From Candidatus Korarchaeum sp. (GTDB taxonomy: Archaea > Korarchaeota > Korarchaeia > Korarchaeales > Korarchaeaceae): DNA of 64,000 nucleotides. Below are positions 4,342 to 64,000 of the stretch, piece by piece. A program made the position numbers and the translations under genes. A model generated the notes under the pieces. It searched no databases. It was not told where the DNA came from and worked only from the letters and a program-made list of their open reading frames with translations. How positions within the stretch are numbered: position 1 is the first letter of the stretch; each line of letters begins with the position of its first letter. The DNA lies in the NCBI GenBank assembly GCA_038888615.1, contig JAWAID010000001.1:434001-498000 (forward strand). Direction: 5' to 3'.

Positions 4342-5676
4342 TTAACGGTTTCTTGAACAGTAAGGGTTCCTCGGGACCTCCACTAGCTCTCTAGGTCCCT
4401 TAACAGTGGCATCTATTATCATTTTCCCCTGAGGCAATCTGAGTATCCTCCTCTCCCCGTCAATAGAGATCTCCCTCAAGTTACTGTGATCGAGGGAGGA
4501 GCCCCTTATCCCGCTTATCATCTTATAGTCGTCAGGTATGTGAGCTCTCTGTAAGACAGCCCTCATGACTTCGATATAGTTCGTCACATCCACATCTTCA
4601 TCAACTATTATAACCCTCTTTAAGCTCTTGTGAGCGGATATCGCCATCAAACCTGCTAAGGTAGGCTGATCCTCATGGGTTTTTCTTATCGATATCGCCG
4701 CTTCCACCCACCCAGCCCCGGCAGGGGTCATAGCTACGTCAATCACCTCCGCGACCTCCGATACTCTCTCCTCGATCAGGGGTTCAACAGGAAGTCCCAT
4801 CAGGATCTGATGCTCCATTCCGGCAGGGAGAATCGCCTGATATATGGGATCTTTCCTGATGTGTATTGAATCCACTGTGAGGACAGGTTGAATCCTAACG
4901 ATATCCTTCCCGAGTATCTCGTAAAACGGTCCTTCTGGCGCGAGATCCCCGGGCTTTATCCTACCGCAAATTACTATCTCCGCACTGGAAGGTGCCCAGG
5001 CATCCAGGTCCTCGCACTTCGAGATCTCAATAGACCTTCCGGAGATACCTCCGGCCATTGAGAGCTTATCCCTATCCTCAGCAGGCATCGCCGAAGCGAT
5101 AAGTACCTCAGTTGGGTTACCTATGGAGACAGCGACCTCTAGCTCCTTCCCTAACCTCGAGAACTTCTCTATAGTTCTGCTAAGCCTCCTCCCCTCCACT
5201 GCCCTTAGAACAAGTCTGTCCTCGGATATGGGGAGCATTCTATGGTAGGATGAGGAGAACTTGCCTCCATCCTTGAGAATCACGATAGATGCCGTCATGT
5301 AAGGACCTGGCTCTCCTAAGTAGTGCTTTAAAATTGGTAAGTCCTTCAGAGTAAGCTCCGTCCTTCTCCACTCCGGTTCAGCTTCAGAAGGGTCCTTTCC
5401 ATTAACTAAGGACTTCTTCATCCTCTCTTTTAGCTCCTTCATAGAATTTAGCCCCATAGCAGTTACTAAAACCTCTCTAGATGTCGCAAATCCTCCGAAA
5501 ACCTTGAAAGCGGCTACCCTCCCATCTCTCAGTAAGGGCTTATTGATGAGAACAGCCTTCTTACCGTCGAGCTTGATCATGTAGGAGGCTATCTCATAAT
5601 CGACTGAGGAGGGTCCCTCGAATACCTCCAAGAGACCCCTCTCCCTAAGTAGCTCGATCGAATCTCTGAGTTCCAT
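4342..5676 (-). CDS. UbiD-family decarboxylase, probable anhydromevalonate phosphate decarboxylase
   Basis: UbiD-fold protein of 444 residues, with the family pattern of an N-terminal domain (RDSIELLRERG), a central prenylated-FMN binding part (YLGEPGPYMTAS and the SYHRM segment) and the C-terminal DEDVDV and LDHS motifs. UbiD enzymes use prenyl-FMN for reversible decarboxylation. Archaea use one member to turn trans-anhydromevalonate 5-phosphate into isopentenyl phosphate; the aconitase-X at 35.9 kb, which would make that substrate, supports the assignment, but the two are not adjacent and other UbiD substrates remain possible. The start is the ATG at 5676, with GGAGGAGGTG about 10 bases upstream; the frame stays open to 5748. 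Confidence 0.8.
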   Translation of the reverse strand: MELRDSIELLRERGLLEVFEGPSSVDYEIASYMIKLDGKKAVLINKPLLRDGRVAAFKVFGGFATSREVLVTAMGLNSMKELKERMKKSLVNGKDPSEAEPEWRRTELTLKDLPILKHYLGEPGPYMTASIVILKDGGKFSSSYHRMLPISEDRLVLRAVEGRRLSRTIEKFSRLGKELEVAVSIGNPTEVLIASAMPAEDRDKLSMAGGISGRSIEISKCEDLDAWAPSSAEIVICGRIKPGDLAPEGPFYEILGKDIVRIQPVLTVDSIHIRKDPIYQAILPAGMEHQILMGLPVEPLIEERVSEVAEVIDVAMTPAGAGWVEAAISIRKTHEDQPTLAGLMAISAHKSLKRVIIVDEDVDVTNYIEVMRAVLQRAHIPDDYKMISGIRGSSLDHSNLREISIDGERRILRLPQGKMIIDATVKGPRELVEVPRNPYCSRNR

Positions 5677-10516: not shown

Positions 10517-10540
10517 ACACTATGATACTCCATGTCCCCC

Positions 10541-10551
10541 TTTATATTAGT
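10541..10551. promoter_or_regulatory. Symmetrical TATA box shared by rtcA and ogt
   Basis: The plus strand reads TTTATATTAG and the minus strand CTAATATAAA. On the minus strand it lies about 26 bp before the rtcA start region; on the plus strand it predicts transcription from about 10570, close to the chosen TTG start of ogt. The spacing is seen in the sequence; shared use is inference. Confidence 0.5.
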
Positions 10552-10563
10552 GCGCCGTTCGCT

Positions 10564-11190
10564 TTGAATTCGAGGGGTGCGAGGACGGAGGTAGCTTACT
10601 GGATCTTCGAGGTGGAGGACAAGTTCGTAGGGGTTGCTGTGGGAGGGGGATTCCTCTACTGTAACACCATACCTCTCGAGGGAGAGGGAGAAGCTGAGAG
10701 GGATCTGATGAGAAACTGCCATACCGCATGGGGAAGATTGAATATGGTGAAGAGATCTATAGAATCCGATCTCATAGCTAGGAAGGTTCATTCAATATAC
10801 GTTGGTGAGATTGAGGATCTACGAGGGGTGAATTTCGCTTTTCATATGGATGAGAGATTTCGAAATGCTCTAATTACCATGATCCTTATCCCTAGAGGTA
10901 GATTCACGACTTACGGGGAGCTTGCAAGGGTATTGAGGACTTCCCCTAGAGTGGTTGGCTCTTACGCGGCTAGGAATCCGTTTCCCTTACTCGTACCTTG
11001 TCATAGGGTCATCAGAGGGGATATGGGAATCGGTGGCTATGGGTACGGGCCTGAGCTCAAAGCCAGGCTCCTCATGCTAGAGGGCGTGGAGGTGGATCTG
11101 AAGCGTATGAAGGTGAACCCTAATAAGCTCATCAGGTCCAGTGAGTTAGTGAGGCTAAGGGAGGTGTGGGGTACTGGCAACTCAACCTAG
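10564..11190 (+). CDS. ogt: Methylated-DNA--protein-cysteine methyltransferase (O6-alkylguanine repair)
   Basis: The C-terminal half (from FRNALITMILIPRGRFTTYGEL) holds the helix-turn-helix DNA-binding segment RTSPRVVGSYAARNPFPLL, the acceptor cysteine in PCHRVI and the following GIGGYGYG loop. The protein takes alkyl groups from O6-alkylguanine onto this cysteine, a one-shot repair. The open frame reaches 10522, but alignment by eye with crenarchaeal Ogt, whose N-terminal strand matches EVAYWIFEVEDK, favours the TTG at 10564 (208 residues). A GTG at 10612 is another option. The 3' end overlaps the proposed crenactin start by 17 bp, suggesting co-translation. Confidence 0.88.
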   Translation: MNSRGARTEVAYWIFEVEDKFVGVAVGGGFLYCNTIPLEGEGEAERDLMRNCHTAWGRLNMVKRSIESDLIARKVHSIYVGEIEDLRGVNFAFHMDERFRNALITMILIPRGRFTTYGELARVLRTSPRVVGSYAARNPFPLLVPCHRVIRGDMGIGGYGYGPELKARLLMLEGVEVDLKRMKVNPNKLIRSSELVRLREVWGTGNST

Positions 11191-12457
11191 ACCCGTCTTC
11201 GCCTCGGACTTCGGGACCTCTTACTACAAGTTCGGCCCCTGGTGGTTAATGAAGACGGGTCCGAGTATAGTGGAGAACAGAGGTTACTTCCCGAGGATAT
11301 CCAAGGTGTCAGCTGAGGTAAGGGGTATGGCTGCTAAGGATGTGGTGGTGGGTGAGGAGGTCGCGGAGTACCTAGAGTCGAGGGCTGACTTGACGAGACT
11401 CTACTATCCGATGAGAAACGGGATCGTGGAGAGGAACGATGATAGGGGATGGAGGGTAGTGAAGGAGCTCGTAAGGTATGGTCTCCTTAAGTATCGCTCA
11501 GGGAGGACAGATACTCTGGGGTTACCCTTCTCGGGTTTCTTCGTTGTCGCAGCACTTGCAGCACAAGCCCCCACTTACATGTACGAGAGGCTCTTCGAGA
11601 TACATGAGGAGGTGAACTCGGAGGAAGGTGGGAATCTAGTGAAGGCGGTTACGATAATCCCCCAGCCTTTGGCAGTAGCTATAGCTGAGAGAGCTGTGGC
11701 CTGCATGGTTGTTGAGGCTGGTCATGGGAACACTCAGATCACACCTATAAGCAGGGATGTGATAAGAGCAGCGTTGATACCGCTAAACAGGGGGGGAAGT
11801 GATTCCGATAGGATAACAGCACAGATACTGAAGGACCTGGGCTACCCTGAGCTAGCTAGGGAGGAGAAGTTCGTCAGGATGTTTAAGGAGATGGTCGGCT
11901 TGCTACCGCTGGAGCTCGGTAGGGCTATCTCTTGGGCGAAGGATCATCCCGGGGCACTACAATCCACATTCAAGATCCCCGGGACTACAGTAGAAGTGGA
12001 AATGGGAGAGAAAGCTTGGCAGAGGTTCCTAATAGGTGAGTTCTTCTTCAATCCCGGGCACGAGATATTCGAGAGCTACTACTCGAGGGGCTTCGTATCG
12101 CCCAGGGATACCTTGGTCAGCGGTGAGGTGGTTCCGGGGAACGTCACCCTCGCTGAGGCCATACGGCTCTCCATATCGAAGATACCTGTGGAGCTCCAAA
12201 CATCCGTCGCGAAGAGGATAATACTCTCAGGAGGGGCTTTTAACTGGAGCGTCCCCAAGGGGTTAGAGGGAATCGCGACGGATTCCCCAACGAAACTGAA
12301 GCATATGCTGAGATCCTTAGGTCTTGAAGTTGACCCGAAGATGGTATCAGATCCTCAGTTCAGCGTCTGGAGGGGATCCGTAGTTTACGGGATGGCTGTC
12401 AATGAGGAGGTGAGGTGGGACTGGTCTAAGATGGAGGGTTGGTACTACCTTAGGTGA
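11174..12457 (+). CDS. Crenactin (archaeal actin homologue), apparent CTG start
   Basis: A 427-residue actin-fold ATPase closest to crenactin. It has phosphate-1 DFGTSYYKFGP at the N-terminus, connect-1 PQPLAVAIAE, phosphate-2 VVEAGHGNTQITPIS, LNRGGSDSDRITAQILKDLGY, the adenosine motif LSGGAFNW and the C-terminal DPQFSVWRGSVVYG. The first ATG (11249) would cut off DFGTS. Upstream in the same frame, back to the TAA at 11156, there is no ATG, GTG or TTG; a CTG at 11174 has GGAGGTG seven bases before it. I therefore call CTG as the start. Crenactin forms filaments thought to shape the cell. It follows ogt directly and no arcadin-like genes are nearby. Confidence 0.88.
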   Translation: MATQPRPVFASDFGTSYYKFGPWWLMKTGPSIVENRGYFPRISKVSAEVRGMAAKDVVVGEEVAEYLESRADLTRLYYPMRNGIVERNDDRGWRVVKELVRYGLLKYRSGRTDTLGLPFSGFFVVAALAAQAPTYMYERLFEIHEEVNSEEGGNLVKAVTIIPQPLAVAIAERAVACMVVEAGHGNTQITPISRDVIRAALIPLNRGGSDSDRITAQILKDLGYPELAREEKFVRMFKEMVGLLPLELGRAISWAKDHPGALQSTFKIPGTTVEVEMGEKAWQRFLIGEFFFNPGHEIFESYYSRGFVSPRDTLVSGEVVPGNVTLAEAIRLSISKIPVELQTSVAKRIILSGGAFNWSVPKGLEGIATDSPTKLKHMLRSLGLEVDPKMVSDPQFSVWRGSVVYGMAVNEEVRWDWSKMEGWYYLR

Positions 12458-13194
12458 GCTAGGATCTCCTTGAAGGACTTAGCGCTCTCAAGACTGAAGC
12501 GAGCATTGTTAAAGAGCACATAGTTCCTCTCCATCACATTTCTCCTAACAAGCTCTGCTAATCTCAGAAGCTCCTCCTCCGAGTACTTGTAGCTGTAGAT
12601 AATCCTGTTTCCCTTCCTCGATCCATGAAGCCTGTAGTACCTGAACTCTCCTAGAACGGGGGATTCGTACATTGGATCCACTACGTGAGTTATACGGAGA
12701 TCCTCCAAGATCCTCCTGAAGCCCTCGCTCTTGAACCAACTCTCGTCCCTGACCTCCCATCCTATCATGATACCCTCACTCCCTATCGATCTGAAGAACT
12801 CCTTGGAGTTCCTTAAGTTCTCATCCGTGGCTTTGAAAGATGGTGGACTCTGGAATACCACTAGGTTGGAATTTAACTCCCTCATAACGTCTCTAAACTT
12901 CTCCCAAGACTCCAGGTTCTTCTTGGTGGGTCTCAGGGAACCGTAGTCAGCGTCAGTAGGGAGCCCCGTTTTCCTCCATATCGCGCTAGAGGGTTCATGC
13001 GTGAACACCATCCAGGCCTTCACTGAGAACTCGAAGGAATCTCTTCCTACAACCCTCCTCCATCTTCTAACGGTTTCCAAATTTGGTAGCTTATAGAAGG
13101 TCTCCTGAACCTCTACTAAGTCAAAGATCTCAGCGTAACTCCTCTTCGATACCTGGAAACCGCAGCAACCGACCCTGATATCGAACCCCTCCAC
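12445..13194 (-). CDS. DUF72 family protein (TIM-barrel)
   Basis: A 249-residue DUF72 protein: it opens DIRVGCCGF, then VEVQETFYKLP, FSVKAW, LVVFQSPPSFK and the late FRYYRLHGS motif typical of the family. DUF72 proteins form a TIM barrel that resembles sugar-phosphate isomerases and nucleases, but their reaction is unknown. The start is a GTG with a TATA-like AAATTTAATC at about 13228-13237 (minus strand), about 13 bases of leader. Its last 13 bp overlap the crenactin 3' end, so the genes are convergent. Confidence 0.85.
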   Translation of the reverse strand: MEGFDIRVGCCGFQVSKRSYAEIFDLVEVQETFYKLPNLETVRRWRRVVGRDSFEFSVKAWMVFTHEPSSAIWRKTGLPTDADYGSLRPTKKNLESWEKFRDVMRELNSNLVVFQSPPSFKATDENLRNSKEFFRSIGSEGIMIGWEVRDESWFKSEGFRRILEDLRITHVVDPMYESPVLGEFRYYRLHGSRKGNRIIYSYKYSEEELLRLAELVRRNVMERNYVLFNNARFSLESAKSFKEILAHLR

Positions 13195-63611: not shown

Positions 63612-64000
63612 ACCCTAACCACCTCCTTCGCATGATCGACTCTTGCCTCTCGCATTGCTCTCTTCATGGCGTTTATGTTCTTCTGGGCTACCTCCCCTGT
63701 CCACCTCCACTTTATGCCTTCCTCCAGGTACTCCAAGGGCAGTATGTTGGTTGCAGCCAGGAGTAAGCCGAGCATCGTTGTGTTAGGGGAGGCCCTACCT
63801 ATCTCCTCCAAAGCTATGGTCGTAGCATCAACACTCCATATTTCGAACTTCTCAGGCAAGGCTAACTGAGATCTGATGGAGGAAGGTTCCTCATCCGAGT
63901 TAGCTAGGAACTTCCCACCCGTTTTCAGCCCTTCGATCATTGATGGGACATACTTAGGCTTCAGTAAGCTGGGATCTATCACTATGACGATGTCCGGTTC
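63608..64000 (-). CDS. porC: Pyruvate:ferredoxin oxidoreductase gamma subunit (partial, N-terminus outside window)
   Basis: The reverse frame enters at the right edge (EPDIVIVIDPSLLK) and continues with ALPEKFEIWSVDATTIALEEIG, NTTMLGLLLAATNILPLEYL and the family's helical end to a stop at 63608. The first about 60 residues, with the FGGQG motif, lie outside. An internal ATG at 63982 is not the start. It is the first visible gene of porC-D-A-B. Confidence 0.9.
   Translation of the reverse strand, partial: EPDIVIVIDPSLLKPKYVPSMIEGLKTGGKFLANSDEEPSSIRSQLALPEKFEIWSVDATTIALEEIGRASPNTTMLGLLLAATNILPLEYLEEGIKWRWTGEVAQKNINAMKRAMREARVDHAKEVVRV

Follow-up and report, generated by a model that had tools for sequence, protein, structure and literature searches.

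By comparing the genomes of one archaeal genus, we conclude that the crenactin-like gene of this Candidatus Korarchaeum genome (G000) is very probably translated from a CTG codon at position 11174 of the window (the whole stretch of 64,000 nucleotides that was analysed), and that this codon very probably derives from TTG. A CTG start restores a full-length actin, whereas a standard gene finder would cut the protein short of its nucleotide-binding motif. The initial annotation had offered either initiation at CTG or a sequence error. The former is supported by our comparison; the latter is disfavoured by a second CTG-bearing orthologue, in genome G002, and by the pattern of start codons across the genus.

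Read directly, the crenactin frame runs from the TAA stop to the first in-frame ATG (Table 1) as ggg agg tgt ggg gta CTG gca act caa cct aga ccc gtc ttc gcc tcg gac ttc ggg acc tct ... tta ATG. The observations made in the initial annotation are borne out here: the motif DFGTS (11207-11221) lies 5' of the ATG at 11249, and ATG, GTG and TTG are all absent from the frame between TAA 11156 and that ATG. CTG 11174 is the sole NTG or ATH codon of this interval. The GGAGGTG at 11160-11166, which had been noted seven bases before the CTG, does leave a spacer of 7 nt, and ATG and TTG are in excess at spacers of 5-7 nt from a Shine-Dalgarno (SD) sequence in the sampled genomes; 16S-like 3' ends were located in G000, G010 and G012. 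Both the SD and the start of crenactin lie inside the 3' end of an upstream methyltransferase-like open reading frame (ORF), which shares 17 nt with the CTG frame, traverses the start column in all 14 genus loci (L001-L014) and ends at 11190 in G000. The N-terminus predicted from the CTG start is (M)ATQPRPVFASDFGTSYYK.

Table 1. Coordinates of the crenactin-like start region and of the other genes compared; positions refer to the window unless a genome and contig (G000:C1) precede them.
Feature	Location	Strand	Basis or remarks
Upstream O6-methylguanine-DNA methyltransferase-like ORF	10522..11190	+	PF01035, 75.8 bits, cut-off 27
In-frame TAA stop, 5' bound of the crenactin frame	11156..11158	+	Direct reading
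Shine-Dalgarno sequence GGAGGTG	11160..11166	+	Complementary to 16S 3' end ...GGATCACCTCC; separated from CTG by 7 nt
CTG, proposed crenactin start codon	11174..11176	+	Direct reading and genus orthologues
Crenactin-like actin, 427 aa plus stop	11174..12457	+	PF00022, 4cj7 and NF053560 scores
DFGTS motif, residues 12-16 from CTG	11207..11221	+	Lost under a start at ATG 11249
First in-frame ATG, codon 26 from CTG	11249..11251	+	Rejected as start
UbiD-family gene	4345-5676	-	Loci L310-L313; start column partly readable by pattern
porG	63614-64000, running past window end	-	Loci L290-L302
Transcription factor B (tfb)	G000:C1:257686-258696	+	Outside window; loci L258-L272
radA	G000:C1:509614-510654	-	Outside window; genus loci L170-L185
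aIF1 (SUI1)	G000:C1:590381-590596	+	Outside window
RACo-like corrinoid-activation protein	G000:C1:624866-626389	-	Outside window; loci L330-L349

The protein matches the Pfam Actin family (PF00022) at 39.1 bits, against a cut-off of 27, and its top match among solved structures is crenactin chain 4cj7 (E 1.8e-102; 4cj7 and 4bql both lie at about 2e-102), the next match after the crenactins being eukaryotic actin at 5e-6. With the NCBIfam crenactin equivalog NF053560 it scores 626.7 bits over profile positions 2-422 of 422, and because this misses the curated cut-off of 630 by 3.3 bits we name the gene crenactin-like, although crenactin is its best solved match. Crenactin structures 4cj7, 5ly3 and 5mw1 are presumably those of Pyrobaculum calidifontis, and our protein resembles that crenactin in aligning with it over nearly its full length, DFGTS included. 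It is unlike 4cj7 in its NF053560 score, which falls under the cut-off, and in having 427 residues from CTG rather than 432; an N-terminus of crenactin length had been proposed. DFGTS, which we take to be the actin phosphate-1 motif, has its D, G, T and S invariant in a 10-sequence alignment (A1). The gene is present in single copy in G000, an archaeal genome of 1.67 Mb, and its frame is otherwise intact. At its 3' end (12445-12457) it overlaps by 13 nt a convergent DUF72 gene on the minus strand (12445-13194).

The initial annotation had proposed, as a check, a comparison of the start codons used by related crenactins. A crenactin match was found in 14 of the 15 other same-genus genomes (G005 had none), and once G008, which is cut at a contig end, had been left out, 14 genomes including G000 had a crenactin gene whose 5' end is intact; in these, the orthologous start codon was located by counting back from DFGTS. 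The start column reads TTG in ten of them (G001, G003, G004, G006, G007, G009, G011, G013, G014 and G015), ATG in two (G010 and G012) and CTG in two (G000 and G002), and a purine-rich SD lies 7 nt 5' of it in 13 of the 14 genomes and 6 nt in G011. G002 also carries an in-frame GTG 6 nt before its CTG, which counts against the CTG there, but this GTG begins only 1 nt after the SD motif. This alternation of ATG, TTG and CTG at a near-fixed SD distance argues for initiation at CTG, as do the conserved non-canonical starts in other genes of the genus that are described below. Because the column is kept as a start throughout the genus, chance is a poor account of the CTG. Outside the genus, a canonical codon lies upstream of the motif in 79 of 79 readable crenactin loci from GTDB (n = 80; the motif pattern was unmatched in L162, which stands outside the count), and in most sister genera the start that can be read nearby is TTG.

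The pattern of substitutions places the beginning of the crenactin frame at the same point. In the 25 codons after the column, differences from G000 number 60, 50 and 143 at crenactin codon positions 1, 2 and 3 (13 genomes), and in the last 20 codons before the SD they number 59, 160 and 116 at the same positions (12 genomes, G011 being left out on account of an indel). The upstream peak of 160 coincides with the wobble position in the methyltransferase-like frame. The wobble pattern therefore switches from the frame of the upstream ORF to that of crenactin, indicating that the selected frame changes around the start column. For the 30 codons upstream of ATG 11249, differences at the three positions are 3, 3 and 12 relative to G012, and 5, 5 and 9 relative to G010.

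In a tree of 22 crenactin proteins, G000 is paired with G011, which carries TTG (support 100/98), and the ATG-bearing pair G010/G012 stands next to them (93/94); G002 is placed elsewhere and is not sister to G000. The simplest account would be an ancestral TTG that became CTG once on the G000 branch, by a T-to-C change, and independently along that of G002. Such a step is of a rare but known kind: an excerpt of a survey of 36 prokaryote triplets gives one switch to CUG among 2,468 ancestral UUG starts (PMC5622118). The replacement of TTG by CTG that we propose on the G000 branch is like the rare CUG and AUU start switches in that excerpt, and differs in frequency, with CTG in two of 14 orthologues of a single gene here and in 15 of 15 loci of tfb. 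Weak starts are usual for crenactin in this genus (10 of 14 have TTG) and its SD here is a perfect 7-mer, so the CTG may be a change from TTG that is simply tolerated, and not a device for holding actin low, the role that had been suggested for it.

Non-canonical starts also appear in other genes of the genus; those outside the window were picked up by screening G000, G010 and G012 over about 400 kb around crenactin. In radA the start is ATH in 16 of 16 same-genus genomes (ATC in seven, ATA in seven, ATT in two, never ATG), behind a GGAAGGTGA-like SD and at the position of an ATG in G018; a stop lies immediately 5' of the ATH in G014 and G003, and a canonical codon (TTG) is found upstream in G006 only. 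For tfb, all 15 same-genus loci found have CTG at the aligned column, behind GGTGGTG; G000, G011 and G002 have a stop immediately 5' of this CTG, and G001, G004 and G009 lack a canonical codon upstream. The porG gene begins with CTG at 11 of 13 readable genus loci, eight of the 11 lacking any canonical codon upstream, and with TTG in G000 and G011; the pattern failed to read L303, an orthologue not counted among the 13. The ATH loci of the RACo-like gene (10 of 12 displayed loci, behind GGAGGTGG; ATA after GGAGGTGGTCGC in G000; ATG in G010 and G012) are weaker cases, because GTG follows a few codons downstream in several. A 106-aa protein has CTG in G000, TTG in three loci and ATG in three (seven loci read of 14), and the aligned start of the UbiD-family gene, in the screen for upstream coding, is ATG in G000, TTG in G010 and CTG in G012. 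This body of comparisons suggests that the genus starts proteins at codons that most gene finders ignore. If CUG and AUH starts have been kept over the time span of the genus in tfb, radA and porG, then the N-terminal annotations of these genes are wrong; it would follow that archaeal start selection is wider than assumed, which a few named genes would suffice to test.

How frequent such starts are is a separate question. An SD-anchored trinucleotide count over about 1.2 Mb from three genomes found no enrichment of CTG at any SD spacing, so CTG can only be a rare start. The screen itself compared genomes in pairs and looked for coding sequence 5' of the first canonical codon of each gene. It flagged 6/353 genes of G000 against G010 and 6/309 against G012 (seven distinct), 1/353 genes of G010 against G000 and 2/349 against G012, and 5/310 and 8/352 genes of G012. 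Judged by eye, five of the seven flags in G000 are credible, namely crenactin, radA, tfb, the RACo-like gene and the 106-aa protein; of the others, 227035 looks antisense and 120304 is ambiguous, and several flags in G010 and G012 are RNA genes or antisense frames. A control pair from another genus, G037/G059, was flagged at 5/357 and 10/358, and most of these flags look by eye like shadow frames. As the control flags are not fewer than those of G000, the screen is unspecific and we claim no excess in Korarchaeum over other archaea; the weight lies in curated conservation over many genomes, not in the flag rate. An automatic tabulation of the 'best SD codon' was too noisy and was dropped for rates: in the 114 columns on which G010 and G012 agreed, G000 had ATG in 60, TTG in 27, GTG in eight, CTG in five and other codons in 14, and the other four CTG columns were unconvincing on inspection. 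The control genus has a conserved CTG of its own in the L382-L389 region, at the start of a gene and after a GGGGGCGA-like motif (sample offset 385436 in G059 and 371772 in G037), and the first canonical codon of this gene in G059 is codon 47. Korarchaeum may not be the only archaeal genus with CTG starts.

In crenactin, an SD-placed 30S complex of the ordinary kind most likely accepts CUG with the normal initiator tRNA. The 16S 3' end would pair with GGAGGTG and so position the CTG in the P site; there the usual initiator Met-tRNA, with its CAU anticodon, would read CUG with a first-position mismatch and insert Met. A tRNA scan of a 400-kb sample of G000, about a quarter of the genome, returned one tRNA-Met(CAT) and nothing odd. 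Because the upstream frame stops 14 nt after the CTG triplet, ribosomes terminating on the methyltransferase-like gene may add to initiation through coupling, an idea drawn from studies of gene overlaps in Haloferax and E. coli, as excerpted from PMC10666635. The crenactin CTG would be one case of a wider use of CTG and ATH starts behind an SD in the genus.

Three other explanations dispense with initiation at CTG. A sequencing or assembly error, with a wrong base at 11174 in G000 and a true codon of TTG (or ATG), would involve a single base, C for T; its correction would restore the TTG that G011, the nearest relative, shares with most of the genus. We nevertheless consider it improbable, since the start column, the SD and their spacing are kept and the frame switches there; moreover, the same column reads CTG in G002, the CTG and ATH starts of tfb, porG, radA and the RACo-like gene are conserved over many same-genus assemblies, and the rest of the crenactin frame is intact. 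Still harder to accept is a start at ATG 11249, which is the first canonical in-frame codon and would give a shortened actin: DFGTS would be lost despite its invariant residues, the 30 codons upstream evolve as coding sequence in the crenactin frame, and the codon at that position is not ATG in G004 and G006. Finally, crenactin might have no start of its own and be made as a fusion, through a +1 frameshift where the methyltransferase-like ORF ends; positions 11159-11190 belong to both frames, which a +1 slip would connect. We give this almost no credence, given that 12 of the 14 orthologues have an SD-positioned TTG or ATG and need no shift; no slippery site was noticed on informal inspection.

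A different kind of alternative accepts the CTG and gives it a purpose, as a weak regulatory start at which aIF1 or another fidelity factor represses initiation, much as IF3 acts on infC in bacteria. We regard this as unlikely, and are equally doubtful that levels of actin (and of TFB and RadA) follow the stringency of initiation. In its favour, the radA start column is never ATG in 16 genomes, its third base varying among A, C and T, the tfb CTG is retained in 15 of 15 loci, and aIF1 is reported, in an excerpt from work on Sulfolobus, to favour discrimination against non-canonical start codons (PMC6237735). The aIF1 of this genus is also distinctive: among 14 aligned rows, all ten from the genus have VTIIEN where all four from sister genera have EG, and its SUI1 scores are about 61-66 bits, compared with 70 or more in most relatives. 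This G-to-N change is a lead for tolerance of CUG and AUH. Against a fixed role in crenactin, however, the codon there varies among TTG, ATG and CTG; strict conservation of a non-canonical start, as in infC, is seen in tfb (15/15) and radA (16/16) and is absent from crenactin. A self-regulating loop like that of infC is not indicated, because the genus aIF1 gene starts with ATG in the ten rows read.

Beyond initiation at CTG 11174 in crenactin itself, we tentatively put forward a broader scheme, although we think it rather unlikely. The genus may read AUG, GUG, UUG, CUG and AUH behind an SD as normal translation and keep the weakest of them purposely where dosage is critical, with AUH in radA and CUG in tfb and porG; the stringency of aIF1, with its genus-specific G-to-N change in a conserved motif, would then set the levels of the recombinase, the transcription factor and, here, actin. 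Judged by titles and abstract openings, we found no published report of such starts in Korarchaeota.

Close known systems in bacteria include the self-regulation of IF3 through the AUU/AUC start of infC and the GTC start of sigR in Streptomyces, as given in an excerpt of PMC5472188. The bacterial factor is IF3, whereas that of archaea is aIF1, here with an ATG start in the rows read. According to the same excerpt, the infC and sigR starts were tested by mutation and protein assays, whereas those of Korarchaeum are known from comparative sequence alone. What the Korarchaeum genes share with infC and sigR, as these are described there, is that non-canonical starts occur in core or regulatory genes and are missed by gene finders that accept only ATG, GTG and TTG.
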